64,000 bases of DNA from Proteinivorax tanatarense (GTDB lineage Bacteria > Bacillota > Proteinivoracia > Proteinivoracales > Proteinivoracaceae), in assembly GCF_040267685.1 (NCBI RefSeq), contig NZ_CP158367.1, positions 2,418,001 to 2,482,000 on the forward strand. Direction: 5' to 3'. Position 1 is the first letter of the stretch; each line of letters starts with the position of its first letter. This document shows, one piece after another, positions 53,950-60,814 of the stretch. Below the pieces are notes generated by a model, which was not told where the DNA came from, did no database searches, and saw nothing but the letters and a program-made list of their open reading frames with translations. The position numbers were made by a program, and so were the translations under genes.

Positions 53950-55185
53950 TTAAGAGTAGTTGGTCTCATAATAAGCCTTATGATAAGTTTTTTTGCCTTT
54001 TCGTATCTTTACACCAGTTTTTAATTGTTCCAAAGTAATAGTACATTTAATAGAGTTAACTTTAGCATCATTAATAAATAATCCTCCTTGATATATTAAT
54101 CGTCTAGCTTCACTTTTAGAAGATGTTATGCCACATTGAACAATTAAATCAATGATACCTATTACATCTCCATCTAAACTATCATCCATAATTTCTGTGG
54201 TAGGTATCAGCGAATCATCCTTTCCAGCTGAAAATAGAGCATGAGAAGCATTTTTAGCATTATAGGCCTCTTGTCGTCCGTGAATCATGCTAGTAAGTTC
54301 ATAGGCTAATACCTCCTTGGCCTTATTTAAATTTTTCCCTGTCCATTTTTCCATTGATTTGATTTCATCAAGAGGTAAAAAAGTAAGCATTCGTAAGCAC
54401 TTAATTACATCAGTATCAGCAATATTTCTCCAATACTGGAAAAATTTAAAAGGAGAGGTTTTGTTAGGATCAAGCCAGACAGCCCCCTTAGCAGTTTTGC
54501 CCATCTTGTTACCTTCAGAGTTTGTTAGTAGTGTGATGGTCATAGCACACGTGTCTTTGCCTAGCTTACGGCGGATTAACTCTCTACCACCTAACATATT
54601 TGACCACTGATCATTTCCACCAATCTGCATATTACACCGATAATTTTTGAATAGATAATAAAAGTCATAAGATTGCATAATCATATAATTTAGCTCTAAA
54701 AACGACAGTCCCTTTTCCAATCTTTGCTTATAACACTCCGCCCTTAACATGTTGTTTACCGAGAAGTTAGCCCCTACTTCACGGAGCATTTCAACGTAGC
54801 TAATATTTAAAAGCCAATGAGCATTATTAACCATTATAGCCTTGTCTTGACCAAAATCAATAAACTTCTCCATCTGCTTTTTGAAACAATCGCAGTTATG
54901 TTGAATTGTTTCAGATGTCATTACAGAACGCAAGTCTGTCCGTCCCGACGGATCACCAATATATCCTGTGCCTCCACCTACAAGAGCAACCGGCTTATTT
55001 CCCGCCATTTGTAAACGTTTCATAAGGCATAATGCCATAAAATGGCCCACATGCAACGAGTCTGCTGTTGGATCAAACCCAATATAAAAAATCGCATCAC
55101 CTTTATTAATAAGCTCTTTAACTTTTTCTTGATCTGTGACTTGAGCTATTAAACCACGCTCCATTAGTTCATCGAAAATTTCCAT
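53950..55185 (-). CDS. tyrS: Tyrosyl-tRNA synthetase
   Basis: 411 residues, normal length for TyrS. The class I motifs are present: a HIGH-like DSLHVGHFMALCLM, the tyrosine/ATP pocket LALVGGGTGYIGDPSG-type stretch (as ALVGGGTGYIGDPSGR), QSYDFYYLFKNY and GGNDQWSNML, and a KMSKS-like GNKMGKTAKG. The C-terminal S4 RNA-binding domain (~345-410, SSKSEARRLIYQGGLFINDA) is complete. It charges tRNA-Tyr in the cytoplasm. ATG with GAAAGGAG. No T-box motif is visible upstream. Confidence 0.96.
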   Translation of the reverse strand: MEIFDELMERGLIAQVTDQEKVKELINKGDAIFYIGFDPTADSLHVGHFMALCLMKRLQMAGNKPVALVGGGTGYIGDPSGRTDLRSVMTSETIQHNCDCFKKQMEKFIDFGQDKAIMVNNAHWLLNISYVEMLREVGANFSVNNMLRAECYKQRLEKGLSFLELNYMIMQSYDFYYLFKNYRCNMQIGGNDQWSNMLGGRELIRRKLGKDTCAMTITLLTNSEGNKMGKTAKGAVWLDPNKTSPFKFFQYWRNIADTDVIKCLRMLTFLPLDEIKSMEKWTGKNLNKAKEVLAYELTSMIHGRQEAYNAKNASHALFSAGKDDSLIPTTEIMDDSLDGDVIGIIDLIVQCGITSSKSEARRLIYQGGLFINDAKVNSIKCTITLEQLKTGVKIRKGKKTYHKAYYETNYS

Positions 55186-55425: not shown

Positions 55426-55956
55426 TTAATCAATATATCTTAAAATATCATTTGGTAAAGTTTGTTTTATTAACTGAACTAGTTGTTCTTTATCTATTTT
55501 CATACCGTTAACTAGCCATTGACTGATCATATCTGTCCCACCACGACAAGCTATTTCGATAGCAAATTTCATTGTATCATCATTAATATCGGCACCTTTA
55601 CTTTTCAAATACTTTTGATATGTTTTTTTAGTGACAGCTATGTCATAATTGCGAAGGCCATTAATATCTCTGCTTTTATATGCATTTTGTAGTATAATGC
55701 TTTTCCCCTGATAAATGTCAAGATAGCGTAACAATGCCTCTTCCCAAGATAAATCTTCAGTAATACGGTCAAAGCTTTTGCTATAAATTTGAATAAAATA
55801 CCAACTTGCTAGAGCGTATTTGTCTTTAAAATGACGGTAAAAAGTTTTTCTTGAAAGTGACGAATCAGCCACTATCTCACTGACCCGTATATCATCAAGA
55901 TTCTTTTTTTGTAGTAGCTTTTCAAGAGATTTTGCTAGCCTGTTCTTTGTATTCAT
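55426..55956 (-). CDS. TetR/AcrR family transcriptional regulator
   Basis: 176 residues from the ATG at 55956, 7 nt after GGAGAG; an in-frame TTG at 55986 lies before that site. The N-terminal TetR HTH reads VSEIVADSSLSRKTFYRHFKDKYAL, and the C-terminal ligand/dimer domain is of the DhaS/TetR_C type. It follows the 52-aa ORF by 67 bp and is probably in the same transcript, downstream of a SAM riboswitch. Confidence 0.88.
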   Translation of the reverse strand: MNTKNRLAKSLEKLLQKKNLDDIRVSEIVADSSLSRKTFYRHFKDKYALASWYFIQIYSKSFDRITEDLSWEEALLRYLDIYQGKSIILQNAYKSRDINGLRNYDIAVTKKTYQKYLKSKGADINDDTMKFAIEIACRGGTDMISQWLVNGMKIDKEQLVQLIKQTLPNDILRYID

Positions 55957-56023
55957 AATGATCTCTCCGTAAATATTATTGAGCAATAATCAAATAATAG
56001 GTCTAAATCGCTTGGACTTATAT

Positions 56024-56182
56024 TTATTGTTTCTTACACCTAGGATCTTCTATGTCTTTAATATTCATATCCGTTAGCGGCTTTATGAATTTTTTATATC
56101 GTTCTTTTTTAAACTGCTTTAACTCATCTTGATTCAATCCCCTTACTGCTTCTTCTAGTGTTACTTTTTTAATACCTTTCAT
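56024..56182 (-). CDS. 52-aa protein under SAM-riboswitch control
   Basis: A small ORF of 52 codons (starts MKGIKKVTLEEAVRGLNQDE, ends EDPRCKKQ). ATG at 56182 with GAGGATGATGATTA upstream at correct spacing. The product is charged, helical and basic (many Lys), without membrane segment or recognisable domain. It is the first gene after a promoter, an S-box aptamer and an intrinsic terminator. Conservation of its start signals and regulation make it likely real. Confidence 0.72.
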   Translation of the reverse strand: MKGIKKVTLEEAVRGLNQDELKQFKKERYKKFIKPLTDMNIKDIEDPRCKKQ

Positions 56183-56215
56183 TAATCATCATCCTCTCAT
56201 TTTTTACTTTAAATG

Positions 56216-56247
56216 TAAAAATCCTTCCTAACAATAGTTAAGAAGGG
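56216..56247 (-). terminator. Riboswitch expression-platform terminator
   Basis: On the minus strand CCTTCTTAAC (56237-56246) pairs with GTTAGGAAGG (56223-56232) with loop TATT, then ATTTTT. The 5' arm can instead pair with TAAGGAGG (56266-56273), forming an antiterminator that competes with aptamer helix P1. Confidence 0.88.
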
Positions 56248-56265
56248 TTATAATTAAATATTTCA

Positions 56266-56353
56266 CCTCCTTATCGTTGTTAGCTGTACCACCTTGCTTT
56301 GTCACAGGTTGGTGTAGGGTCATTGAGCTAACTCTCTACCCTAACTCTTGATA
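56266..56353 (-). ncRNA. SAM (S-box clan) riboswitch, SAM-I/IV-variant-like
   Basis: The minus-strand RNA contains the S-box core in order: UAUCAAGAG (56345-56353), a P2 arm (TAGGGT at 56338-56343 with ACCCTA at 56315-56320 and inner GAG/CUC), AAUGA, CAACCUG opening P3 (ACCAACCT 56306-56313 with AGGTGGT 56288-56294), AAGGUGGUA, and CGAUAAGG closing P1 (56269-56275). The P2 loop GTTAGCT (56326-56332) is complementary to AGCTAAC (56279-56285), the SAM-clan pseudoknot. The P4 arm of classical SAM-I is absent, as in SAM-I/IV variants. SAM binding should stabilise P1 and allow termination (OFF switch). Confidence 0.85.
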
Positions 56354-56385
56354 GTTTTGGTTATTTTTTTTACAATTTTGTTAAA

Positions 56386-56414
56386 ATGTTAACGCAAAAA
56401 TTCACCTTTGTCAA
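56386..56414 (-). promoter_or_regulatory. Promoter of the SAM-riboswitch transcript
   Basis: TTGACA (56409-56414), 17-bp spacer, TAACAT (56386-56391) on the minus strand; the start point would lie ~25 nt before the aptamer. Confidence 0.82.
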
Positions 56415-57374: not shown

Positions 57375-59093
57375 TCAACCAGATAATTTGCTATAAAGTC
57401 CAGTATAAACTCCAGCTCTTGTTAGCAGTTCGTCATGGTTACCTCTTTCTATTATTTGCCCATGCTCCACCACTAAAATACTGTCTGAATTTTTGATTGT
57501 AGATAACCTGTGAGCTATAATTACAGTTGTTTTATTTTGCATAAGGTTGCTAAAAGCATTTTGAACTAATTTTTCTGATTCATTATCTAAAGAGGAGGTA
57601 GCTTCATCAAGTAGCAATATTGGAGCATCTTTGACTATAGCTCTAGCTATTGCTATCCTTTGTTTTTGACCACCAGACAAAAATATCCCCCTTTCACCCA
57701 CCATTGTATCATAGCCATTTTCAAGGCTTGAAATAAAGTCATGGGCGTTTGCTGCTTTTGCCGCTGCAAAAATTTCGCAATCTGATGCATCTTTTTTGCC
57801 ATATGATATGTTCTCTTTGACAGTACCGTTAAAAAGATATGGATCTTGAGGTACATATGCCATCAAGCTGCGAAGGCTGTCGATTGAGTAGTCATGGCCC
57901 ATTTCGCCAAAATAAGATATGCTTCCATCTTGTGGTTGGTATAATCCGAGTAACAGCTTAAATATAGTGCTTTTCCCTCCACCACTAGGTCCTACTATAG
58001 CTACAGTTCCACCCTCTCTTACTTCAAAGGAGATATTATTTAAAACAGTATCTGTGCAGTTATATGAAAAACTAACATTTTCTACTGCTATAGCATTATT
58101 ATTATTTAAGGCCGGCATCTTTTTGAAATGGGTAGGTTCTTCCTCCATTTCTAACAATTCATTTACCCTGTCAAGTCCGGCAAAAGATTCTTGAACTTGA
58201 TTTAAAAACTCTCCTAAGCTTTGAAAAAATATCCTAACACCATGTTGTAGCTGGTTAATAGCTAACACTTGACCAAAAGTAAAGTCTCCCTTTTCCTTCA
58301 TTATAAAAATACTGGCTATAGCTATAAAACCGATAGCAGAAAAGGTCCTTAAAAAACTATTTAACCCACGCATAACAGCACTAATTTCAACTCTTTTTGA
58401 TACAGCTTTATAAACAGATTTGTTCTTTTGCTCATACCTTCTAGCCATTTTATTTTTCAAGTTATATAGTTTTATAACTGAAGCTCCAGTAATTATATCA
58501 GAGATAGCTGTAGTTGTAGAAGATAACTTTTTTTGTACTTTATCACTACTTTCTTTCATAGGGTTAATAAATAAACTGCTAATACCAAGTGTTATAAGGT
58601 TCCAGGTTAAAAGACCTAAGGCAAGTTTCCAGTTTAATATGAACATATATGTTATACACGCTATTCCGACTAAAAATGTACCAGTTATATTAAGAAGATA
58701 TTCTGTTAAAGATTTTTCCAAAACTTGAATGTCATTTGTCACTCTAGATATAAAGTCGCCACTATGACCTTGGCTATGATTTTGAATAGATATTTTAAGC
58801 ATTTTATTAAATGCTTTAGCTCTTAAAAAACTAATAGCTTTTATAGAGGAAACTCTGATTAAAATATGTCCTATCAAAACAAGTATTGTAAGAAAAAAAG
58901 TCAAGGCTATTAATCCGTAAACTGCGTTTAAAACTAAACTTATGTCCTGTGCTATAATACCATCAAAAATGACTAAATATATAGTTGCTATAAAAATTTG
59001 ATTTAAATTCAACATAGATATACAAACAAGCCCAATAGAATACCTTAATCTATTTCCCTTTAACAAACTATATAAATTTTTAATTCCCTGCAC
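57375..59093 (-). CDS. ABC exporter, half-transporter (multidrug type)
   Basis: 572 residues: six-helix ABC transporter domain (~15-310) and an ATPase domain with Walker A GPSGGGKST, signature LSGGQKQRIAIARA, Walker B PILLLDEATSSLD and the His switch AHRLS. GTG start with GGAGGGG; the GTG overlaps the upstream stop by one base. With its neighbour it forms a BmrCD/YheIH-type heterodimer that exports lipophilic compounds or peptides. Confidence 0.94.
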   Translation of the reverse strand: MQGIKNLYSLLKGNRLRYSIGLVCISMLNLNQIFIATIYLVIFDGIIAQDISLVLNAVYGLIALTFFLTILVLIGHILIRVSSIKAISFLRAKAFNKMLKISIQNHSQGHSGDFISRVTNDIQVLEKSLTEYLLNITGTFLVGIACITYMFILNWKLALGLLTWNLITLGISSLFINPMKESSDKVQKKLSSTTTAISDIITGASVIKLYNLKNKMARRYEQKNKSVYKAVSKRVEISAVMRGLNSFLRTFSAIGFIAIASIFIMKEKGDFTFGQVLAINQLQHGVRIFFQSLGEFLNQVQESFAGLDRVNELLEMEEEPTHFKKMPALNNNNAIAVENVSFSYNCTDTVLNNISFEVREGGTVAIVGPSGGGKSTIFKLLLGLYQPQDGSISYFGEMGHDYSIDSLRSLMAYVPQDPYLFNGTVKENISYGKKDASDCEIFAAAKAANAHDFISSLENGYDTMVGERGIFLSGGQKQRIAIARAIVKDAPILLLDEATSSLDNESEKLVQNAFSNLMQNKTTVIIAHRLSTIKNSDSILVVEHGQIIERGNHDELLTRAGVYTGLYSKLSG

Positions 59094-60814
59094 TAAGCCA
59101 CCCCTCCTTTTCTACTATCAAACTGCTTGTGATACAGATTATGGTAAACCCCTTTCTTATTCAGAAGTTCTTTATGGTTTCCTTCTTCAACTATATTGCC
59201 TTTGTCTAGCACCAATATTCTATCAGCGTTGATTATTGTGGAGAGTCTATGAGCAATTACTATGCTCGTGCTTCCTATCAACACATTGTCCAATGCCTTT
59301 TGCACTAGCGCTTCTGATTCTGTGTCTAAAGAAGAAGTAGCTTCATCTAAAAGTAGAAGATCTGGCTCCTTTAAAAGAGCTCTAGCTATAGCTAACCTTT
59401 GCTTTTGTCCACCTGAGTAATTATCCCCCTTTTCTTCTACCACAGTATCATATCCGTTCGGTTGCTTTTTAATGAACTCATGGGCATTTGCTATAGTAGC
59501 AGCTTTTATTAACTGCGTTTCAGTACAATTTTCACAAACCATGGTTAAGTTTTCTCGTATTGTAGTGGGAAAAAGAAAAGTTTCTTGGCTAACAGTAGAT
59601 ATATTAGACCTTAACTTATCCAAATTCCAGCTTTCAATATCTTTTTCAAACATATCAATTTTTCCTTGATAGTTTGTGTAAAAGCCAGTTAAGAGCTTAA
59701 ATATTGTAGACTTCCCGCTGCCACTAGAACCTACTAAAGCCACAGTTTCACCTTTTTTTACTTTAAAACTTAAGTTTTTTAAGACAGAGTTATCATCATA
59801 ACCAAAAGTTAAGTTTTTCACTTCAACTAATGTCGATGCATCTTTAACATCAAATGATTCGCCATTCTTTCTTTCATCTTCTTCATTTAACAAATCATAA
59901 ATTCTTTTAAGACCCTGCATGGATGCTTTGTAGCTACCATAATGACTCGGAAGTTGGGCAAGGGGAAAAGTCAGGTTGTTTAATAGATTGATAAATGCCA
60001 ACAACTCTCCAGGAGTTAAGGAACCTCTAACTGTTAAATAACCTCCTAAACCAAAAGTTACAACAAAGGGCAAAAATGATATACCCACAGTAAAACTTTC
60101 TAAAACAGCCCTTTTTTTCGCTAATTCTATTCCTCTATTCATAGAGGTTTCTACTTGTTTACTAAACTTATCTCTCATAAGATCTTCTAGGTTAAATGCT
60201 TTAACTATAGATATTCCACCTAAAATATCTTGAGTGGTATTGTTCATATTAGATAGTTCATCTTGCTGCTCTTTACTAAACTTAGAAATAGGCTTACCTA
60301 AAAAGAAAGTTGTACTGAATAATAGAGGTAGCACCGCTATACTGATTATTGTAAGCTGCCAGTTTAAATAAAGAAGATAAACAAAGGAGACTAGCGCCAA
60401 TAGCGGCCTAGATACTAGCAAATAAGCATCATGATTGAGAAACTGACTAACCATTTGAAGATCATTTGTAAGCTTTGACATGCTATCTCCAGAGTGCATT
60501 TTATCTAGCTTATATTGTGGAAGGGCTAGCAATTTTTGCGTCCCCTCTTTTCTCAGGGTGTAAGTTATAGCTTCACTTATTTTGCCAACGGACAGGGTTT
60601 GGCCGCTTATACACAATGCCAAAAATACTGCAGTTAAAACTAAAATTCCAAGGTATAGATAAAAAGAATCTTGAGCTTGCATTAAAGAGCTGTCTATTAA
60701 GACTTTTAAAGATTGGGCCATTGCTAACGTAAAAATCAATTCTCCAATTAAACACATACCCGCTAAAAAATAATACCCTTTTAAGTTAGGCAATCTACTT
60801 ATCAGTTTCTTCAA
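59093..60814 (-). CDS. ABC exporter, half-transporter (multidrug type)
   Basis: 573 residues with the same design: six TM helices, Walker A GSSGSGKST, signature YSGGQKQRLAIARA (Tyr replacing the usual Leu), Walker B DLLLLDEATSSLD and AHRLS. Start TTG at 60814 with GAGGGG. It is translationally coupled to the second half-transporter. Confidence 0.94.
   Translation of the reverse strand: MKKLISRLPNLKGYYFLAGMCLIGELIFTLAMAQSLKVLIDSSLMQAQDSFYLYLGILVLTAVFLALCISGQTLSVGKISEAITYTLRKEGTQKLLALPQYKLDKMHSGDSMSKLTNDLQMVSQFLNHDAYLLVSRPLLALVSFVYLLYLNWQLTIISIAVLPLLFSTTFFLGKPISKFSKEQQDELSNMNNTTQDILGGISIVKAFNLEDLMRDKFSKQVETSMNRGIELAKKRAVLESFTVGISFLPFVVTFGLGGYLTVRGSLTPGELLAFINLLNNLTFPLAQLPSHYGSYKASMQGLKRIYDLLNEEDERKNGESFDVKDASTLVEVKNLTFGYDDNSVLKNLSFKVKKGETVALVGSSGSGKSTIFKLLTGFYTNYQGKIDMFEKDIESWNLDKLRSNISTVSQETFLFPTTIRENLTMVCENCTETQLIKAATIANAHEFIKKQPNGYDTVVEEKGDNYSGGQKQRLAIARALLKEPDLLLLDEATSSLDTESEALVQKALDNVLIGSTSIVIAHRLSTIINADRILVLDKGNIVEEGNHKELLNKKGVYHNLYHKQFDSRKGGVA

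Follow-up and report, generated by a model that had tools for sequence, protein, structure and literature searches.

The leader that precedes a 52-aa open reading frame (ORF) and a TetR regulator gene in Proteinivorax tanatarense is very probably a SAM-I (S-box) riboswitch without P4, predicted to switch its operon off at high SAM levels. We analysed a window of 64,000 nucleotides (contig NZ_CP158367.1, positions 2,418,001 to 2,482,000), in which a promoter, the leader, a terminator, the 52-aa ORF and the TetR gene follow one another on the minus strand from 56414 to 55426 (Table 1). The leader carries UAUCAAGAG, AAUGA, CAACC, AAGGUGGUA and GAUAAGG on this strand. Every element described in the initial annotation, namely the promoter, the S-box-like motifs, the terminator and a competing antiterminator, was found there, and the TetR assignment was confirmed by Pfam and NCBIfam domains. 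The open frame of the TetR gene is 55986-55426, with ATG 55956 as its likely start, and the gene begins 67 bases past the 52-aa ORF.

Two features of the surroundings were also noted. Upstream of the locus lie two adjacent MsbA-like ABC exporter genes (window 57375-60814), which are possible targets of the TetR regulator. Downstream of TetR lies a tyrosyl-tRNA synthetase gene (window 53950-55185); the genome has a second TyrS-like gene, only 28% identical to it.

Table 1. Features of the riboswitch locus, in window coordinates.
Feature	Position	Strand	Evidence
sigma-70-type promoter TTGACA-N17-TAACAT	56386..56414	-	sequence; consensus scan, 10/12 matches
P4-less SAM-I (S-box) aptamer (predicted)	56268..56356	-	RF00162 match; model R1
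P1 5' strand UAUC	56350..56353	-	alignment A5
P1 3' strand GAUA	56272..56275	-	alignment A5
P2a 5' strand, kink-turn side, P2b 5' strand	56334..56343	-	alignment A5
P2b 3' strand, kink-turn bulge, P2a 3' strand	56315..56327	-	alignment A5
pseudoknot strand GUUAG, P2b loop	56328..56332	-	100% paired, 9 distinct sequences
pseudoknot strand CUAAC, J3/4	56279..56283	-	100% paired, 9 distinct sequences
P3 hairpin, with C-G replacing one canonical S-box base pair	56287..56313	-	alignment A5
antiterminator strand UAAGGAGG, overlaps P1 3' strand	56266..56273	-	duplex with 56246-56239, -9.7 kcal/mol
intrinsic terminator, 10 pairs + T tail; 5' arm CCUUCUUA pairs with the antiterminator strand	56223..56246	-	sequence scan
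RBS-like GAGAGG before the 52-aa ORF	56198-56193	-	sequence
orphan 52-aa ORF	56024..56182	-	open reading frame
perfect 7+2+7 palindrome ATTATTG-CT-CAATAAT, candidate operator, between the 52-aa ORF and TetR	55975..55990	-	sequence
TetR-type regulator, TetR_N + TetR_C_8, DhaS-like	55426..55956	-	Pfam, NCBIfam

Detection of the leader and its relatives

The Rfam SAM model (S-box, RF00162) matched 56356-56268 at 34.4 bits, with an E-value of 2.5e-6 when the stretch was searched under an E-value threshold and of 6.8e-6 over the whole 3.09-Mb genome. The gathering cut-off of this model is 44.4 bits, and a default Rfam scan of the window with gathering cut-offs reported no match because the leader scores below it. 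The clan filter of cmscan retained RF00162 for the leader, and the fold z of -2.44 was taken as beyond chance. Three stronger SAM matches to RF00162 were found in the same genome, one before metK and a tandem pair before an NhaC-type transporter gene. The leader is a genuine riboswitch from a known clan, with SAM sensing predicted.

We then sought relatives that share the loss of P4. A DNA search of 101 genomes returned leaders 74-79% identical to the window copy at four places: one each in G002 and G012 and, in both the window genome and the same-genus genome G001, the first RNA of the tandem. A covariance model (R1) was built from five copies and run over 398 genomes, where nine loci scored at least 74.8 bits and the next SAM RNAs scored at most 48 bits. 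The window aptamer scored 99.1 bits against R1, being itself among the sequences of that model. Through this model the set gained a further G001 copy and single copies in G155, G233 and G288. An Erysipelotrichaceae MAG contig (CACXEN010000153.1) came from a pattern scan covering 84,980 named species, and G414 from a second model, R2. The P4-less copies are mostly already recognised by RF00162, since seven sister loci, at 46.8-60.1 bits, pass its cut-off, which G002 (35.7 bits) and the window copy do not reach. No description of a P4-less S-box was found in the open literature searched, whose coverage of structural work is partial.

Several of these loci have individual features. A P4-less RNA followed by a canonical SAM riboswitch forms a tandem before one transporter gene (L031:8580-8848 and L033:8522-8789), and the P4-less RNA, first in the tandem, has a terminator of its own. 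In G414, the P4-less SAM RNA has a divergent pseudoknot, CAAG:CUUG, and is followed by a short MORN-like ORF in a neighbourhood of type I restriction-modification-like genes (L076:6689-7287). In G155, a P4-less RNA precedes an apparent integral membrane protein (L070:5516-6400).

Structure of the P4-less aptamer

Ten P4-less leaders, nine of them distinct, were aligned (A5), and pairing was assessed for P1, P2a, P2b, P3 and the pseudoknot. It was found that 97.7% of the cells pair, with two-sided changes at nine pairs, and that none of 500 shuffles reached the observed pairing or two-sided-change count; slid versions of the structure were 23-49% paired. A chance resemblance to the S-box, to which the blank default Rfam scan might have pointed, is practically negligible as an explanation, given the two-sided covariation of nine pairs among the leaders. 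P1, P2a/P2b with the kink-turn, and P3 were all present by covariation. The pseudoknot between the P2b loop and J3/4 was paired throughout, with two pairs changed on both sides among the nine distinct sequences (GUUAG:CUAAC in the window, CUUAG:CUAAG in G002, UUUGG:CCAAA in G001). It had been annotated with 7 bp; we corrected this to 5 bp, a size that fits P2b and is backed by covariation, because two further pairs would take bases of P2b. The pseudoknot strand is joined to P1 by only 3-4 bases, mostly NNC, in every copy, and P4 is therefore absent from all of them.

All of the positions U7, G11, C44, A45, U57, G58 and U88 (T. tengcongensis numbering), which we take to be those contacting SAM, are kept in the window copy as aligned in A5. 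The conserved positions of the SAM-I aptamer are listed in PMC3764141. Two departures from the canonical core were observed. The P3 pair G43-C59 has become C-G in 6/9 distinct copies, a two-sided swap, and the second G.A pair of the kink-turn has become U opposite A (U for G at 2n) in the window, G002, G288 and MAG copies (4/9 distinct). By analogy the latter change is tolerated, because an engineered SAM-I RNA carrying G2nU,G3nU retains SAM binding (PMC3651934); U at 2n is also common in Kt-23 kink-turns (PMC5061560).

P1 is weak in the window copy. It comprises four contiguous pairs, UAUC:GAUA, followed by a C.A mismatch or, in an alternative pairing, by a bulged A and a single C-G pair. It is among the weakest in the P4-less set, which is probably one reason for the low RF00162 score. 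One reading of this lesion is that the window holds a decaying duplicate of a P4-less SAM riboswitch, damaged in P1 and standing before an orphan ORF, with a weak or absent SAM response. The RF00162 score, the lowest in the group against 46.8-60.1 bits for most, is consistent with decay, as is an ORF that has no homologue and an indecisive codon signal. However, the window copy retains an intact promoter, pseudoknot, terminator and antiterminator and all its SAM-contacting bases, and the G002 copy also scores low. The lesion need not be fatal, because P1 of SAM-IV likewise has four pairs (PMC6890682), although it may raise the SAM level that the window copy needs. We consider decay unlikely, if the most serious rival to a working P4-less SAM-I riboswitch.

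Class assignment and ligand

The P4-less RNAs share with SAM-I (RF00162) P1, the kink-turned P2a/P2b, P3, the pseudoknot from the P2b loop to J3/4, the SAM-contact bases, the terminator/antiterminator platform and relatives placed before SAM/methionine genes. They differ from it in having 3-4 bases, mostly NNC, in place of P4, a 5-bp pseudoknot of the GUUAG:CUAAC type, a P3 pair that is mostly C-G rather than G-C and, in the four copies named above, U rather than G at 2n.

The initial annotation had also proposed searches with the SAM-IV and SAM-I/IV models, and neither yielded an assignment. SAM-IV (RF00634) resembles the P4-less RNAs in its missing P4, 5-base PK-1 and 4-bp P1, and it carries P5 and PK-2 (PMC6890682). 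P5/PK-2 was not found here, and the kink-turn is SAM-I-like. The RF00634 model gave no match in the window genome, and a PK-2 complement to the P3 loop was not beyond chance in the window copy nor consistent among the relatives, so SAM-IV membership was rejected. The SAM-I/IV model (RF01725) shares the SAM clan core and scored the window copy at 37.2 bits, marginally more bits than RF00162 gives it yet under the RF01725 cut-off of 41.1 bits; the other P4-less loci reported scored 31.4-35.8 bits. SAM-I/IV has no internal loop in P2 (PMC2864571), whereas an asymmetric kink-turn internal loop is present there in all P4-less copies, and this membership was likewise rejected. We therefore regard either of these two classes as highly unlikely. 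From these mismatches and the clan filter's retention of RF00162, the RNA is classified on sequence features as SAM-I-type without P4, not as a strict SAM-I member by every feature. The window riboswitch is thus a modest structural variant of a class already known.

The genes behind the relatives bear on the ligand. In the Erysipelotrichaceae MAG contig, a P4-less leader directly precedes metK. In G012, another precedes a cluster encoding a metA-type HTS, MTHFR and an amino acid kinase; the leader-to-gene gap there is partly masked as N, and a Cys/Met-type PLP enzyme within it was called by eye only. In the window genome and G001, the tandems precede NhaC-type transporters. MetT, a proposed methionine transporter of the NhaC superfamily, is S-box-controlled (PMC2940859). 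Because relatives precede metK, the metA/MTHFR cluster and MetT-like NhaC transporters, SAM is the expected ligand of the P4-less leaders. The same fold with an altered ligand, such as SAH or another nucleoside, would suit the unusual target genes at the window locus; given unaltered SAM-contact bases and the presence of this RNA type before metK, metA-type and MetT-like genes, we judge it very improbable, even more so than a SAM-IV or SAM-I/IV assignment. The earlier reading of the leader as a P4-less S-box riboswitch is upheld by the covariance-model matches, the ten aligned relatives, their covariation and these gene contexts. It was noted that the NhaC/MetT-like gene behind the tandem of the window genome is two overlapping frames (L031:9185-10523) and a single 453-aa frame in G001; the split is a frameshift or a sequencing error.

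The predicted switch and the genes behind it

In the window leader, UAAGGAGG, including the P1 3' side, pairs with the terminator arm CCUUCUUA, and the antiterminator and terminator hairpins are mutually exclusive. Pairing of the P1 3' strand with the terminator arm reaches about -9 kcal/mol or better in 7/9 leaders. It is weak in the second G001 copy (-4.4 kcal/mol), and the score of the tandem copy is unreliable since the wrong GAT was used as anchor. A terminator with a competing antiterminator implies an OFF switch in which SAM favours termination. SAM binding would keep P1 closed, whereupon the terminator (56246-56223) would form and transcription would end. At low SAM, the P1 3' side would instead pair with the terminator 5' arm, and RNA polymerase would read through into the 52-aa ORF and the TetR gene, presumably co-transcribed. 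As for the control of these two genes that had been proposed, the anatomy fits a terminator/antiterminator switch, and the control itself we infer. Against this P4-less SAM-I switch stand the sub-cut-off score, the weak P1 and targets that are no recognisable SAM genes.

The 52-aa protein, as annotated, has no recognisable domain, with no significant match in Pfam, NCBIfam, PHROG or PDB. Homologues were found neither in 101 relatives nor in the 84,980-species contig collection, plasmids or viral contigs; matches among the relatives at E 0.03-1 were mostly segments inside longer unrelated frames. The suggestion that it takes part in SAM or methionine homeostasis as a new component drew on its position and is not supported, because the protein has no homologues behind similar leaders in any collection searched. 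Its codon usage fits the genome, and its own shuffled bases score as high in 15.6% of cases; the ORF is therefore a putative gene.

Small orphan proteins are also encountered elsewhere. Directly behind P4-less leaders in G001 and G002 lie orphan proteins of 111/104 aa, 42% identical to each other, which lends some support to the idea that this RNA type controls small orphan proteins. They are located at L069:6837-7172 and L034:8433-8747, with a methyltransferase gene next in G002. The 104-111-aa protein was not found in the window genome. A wider family was rejected, being clear in G001 and G002 only; a match in G300 looked stop-rich, forward frames only being inspected. A link to the small proteins of G233 and G288 was also rejected (hhalign probability only 28%).

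The TetR of the window locus is absent from G001. The palindrome between the 52-aa ORF and TetR may be an operator; a search for a second copy gave only mismatched sites at chance level. Tentatively, TetR most likely serves as a second-tier regulator produced when SAM is short. It may act at the palindrome that precedes its own gene, though this step is a guess.

P4 is considered an element of the SAM-I fold, and SAM-IV, the P4-less clan member known to us, has a further pseudoknot where P4 would be. RNAs that occur naturally with neither P4 nor a replacement pseudoknot indicate how small a periphery may be enough to support the SAM pocket, and through them the purpose of P4 could be tested in a natural setting. 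It is conceivable, though rather unlikely, that P4-less SAM-I RNAs are a distinct minimal SAM-clan architecture in several Firmicutes lineages, controlling metK, metA-type genes and also small orphan proteins (52 aa; the 104-111-aa family of two related genera) that would have as yet undescribed roles in SAM use. A working window copy would pass a SAM signal to a TetR regulator and a small protein, an unusual target for the class.
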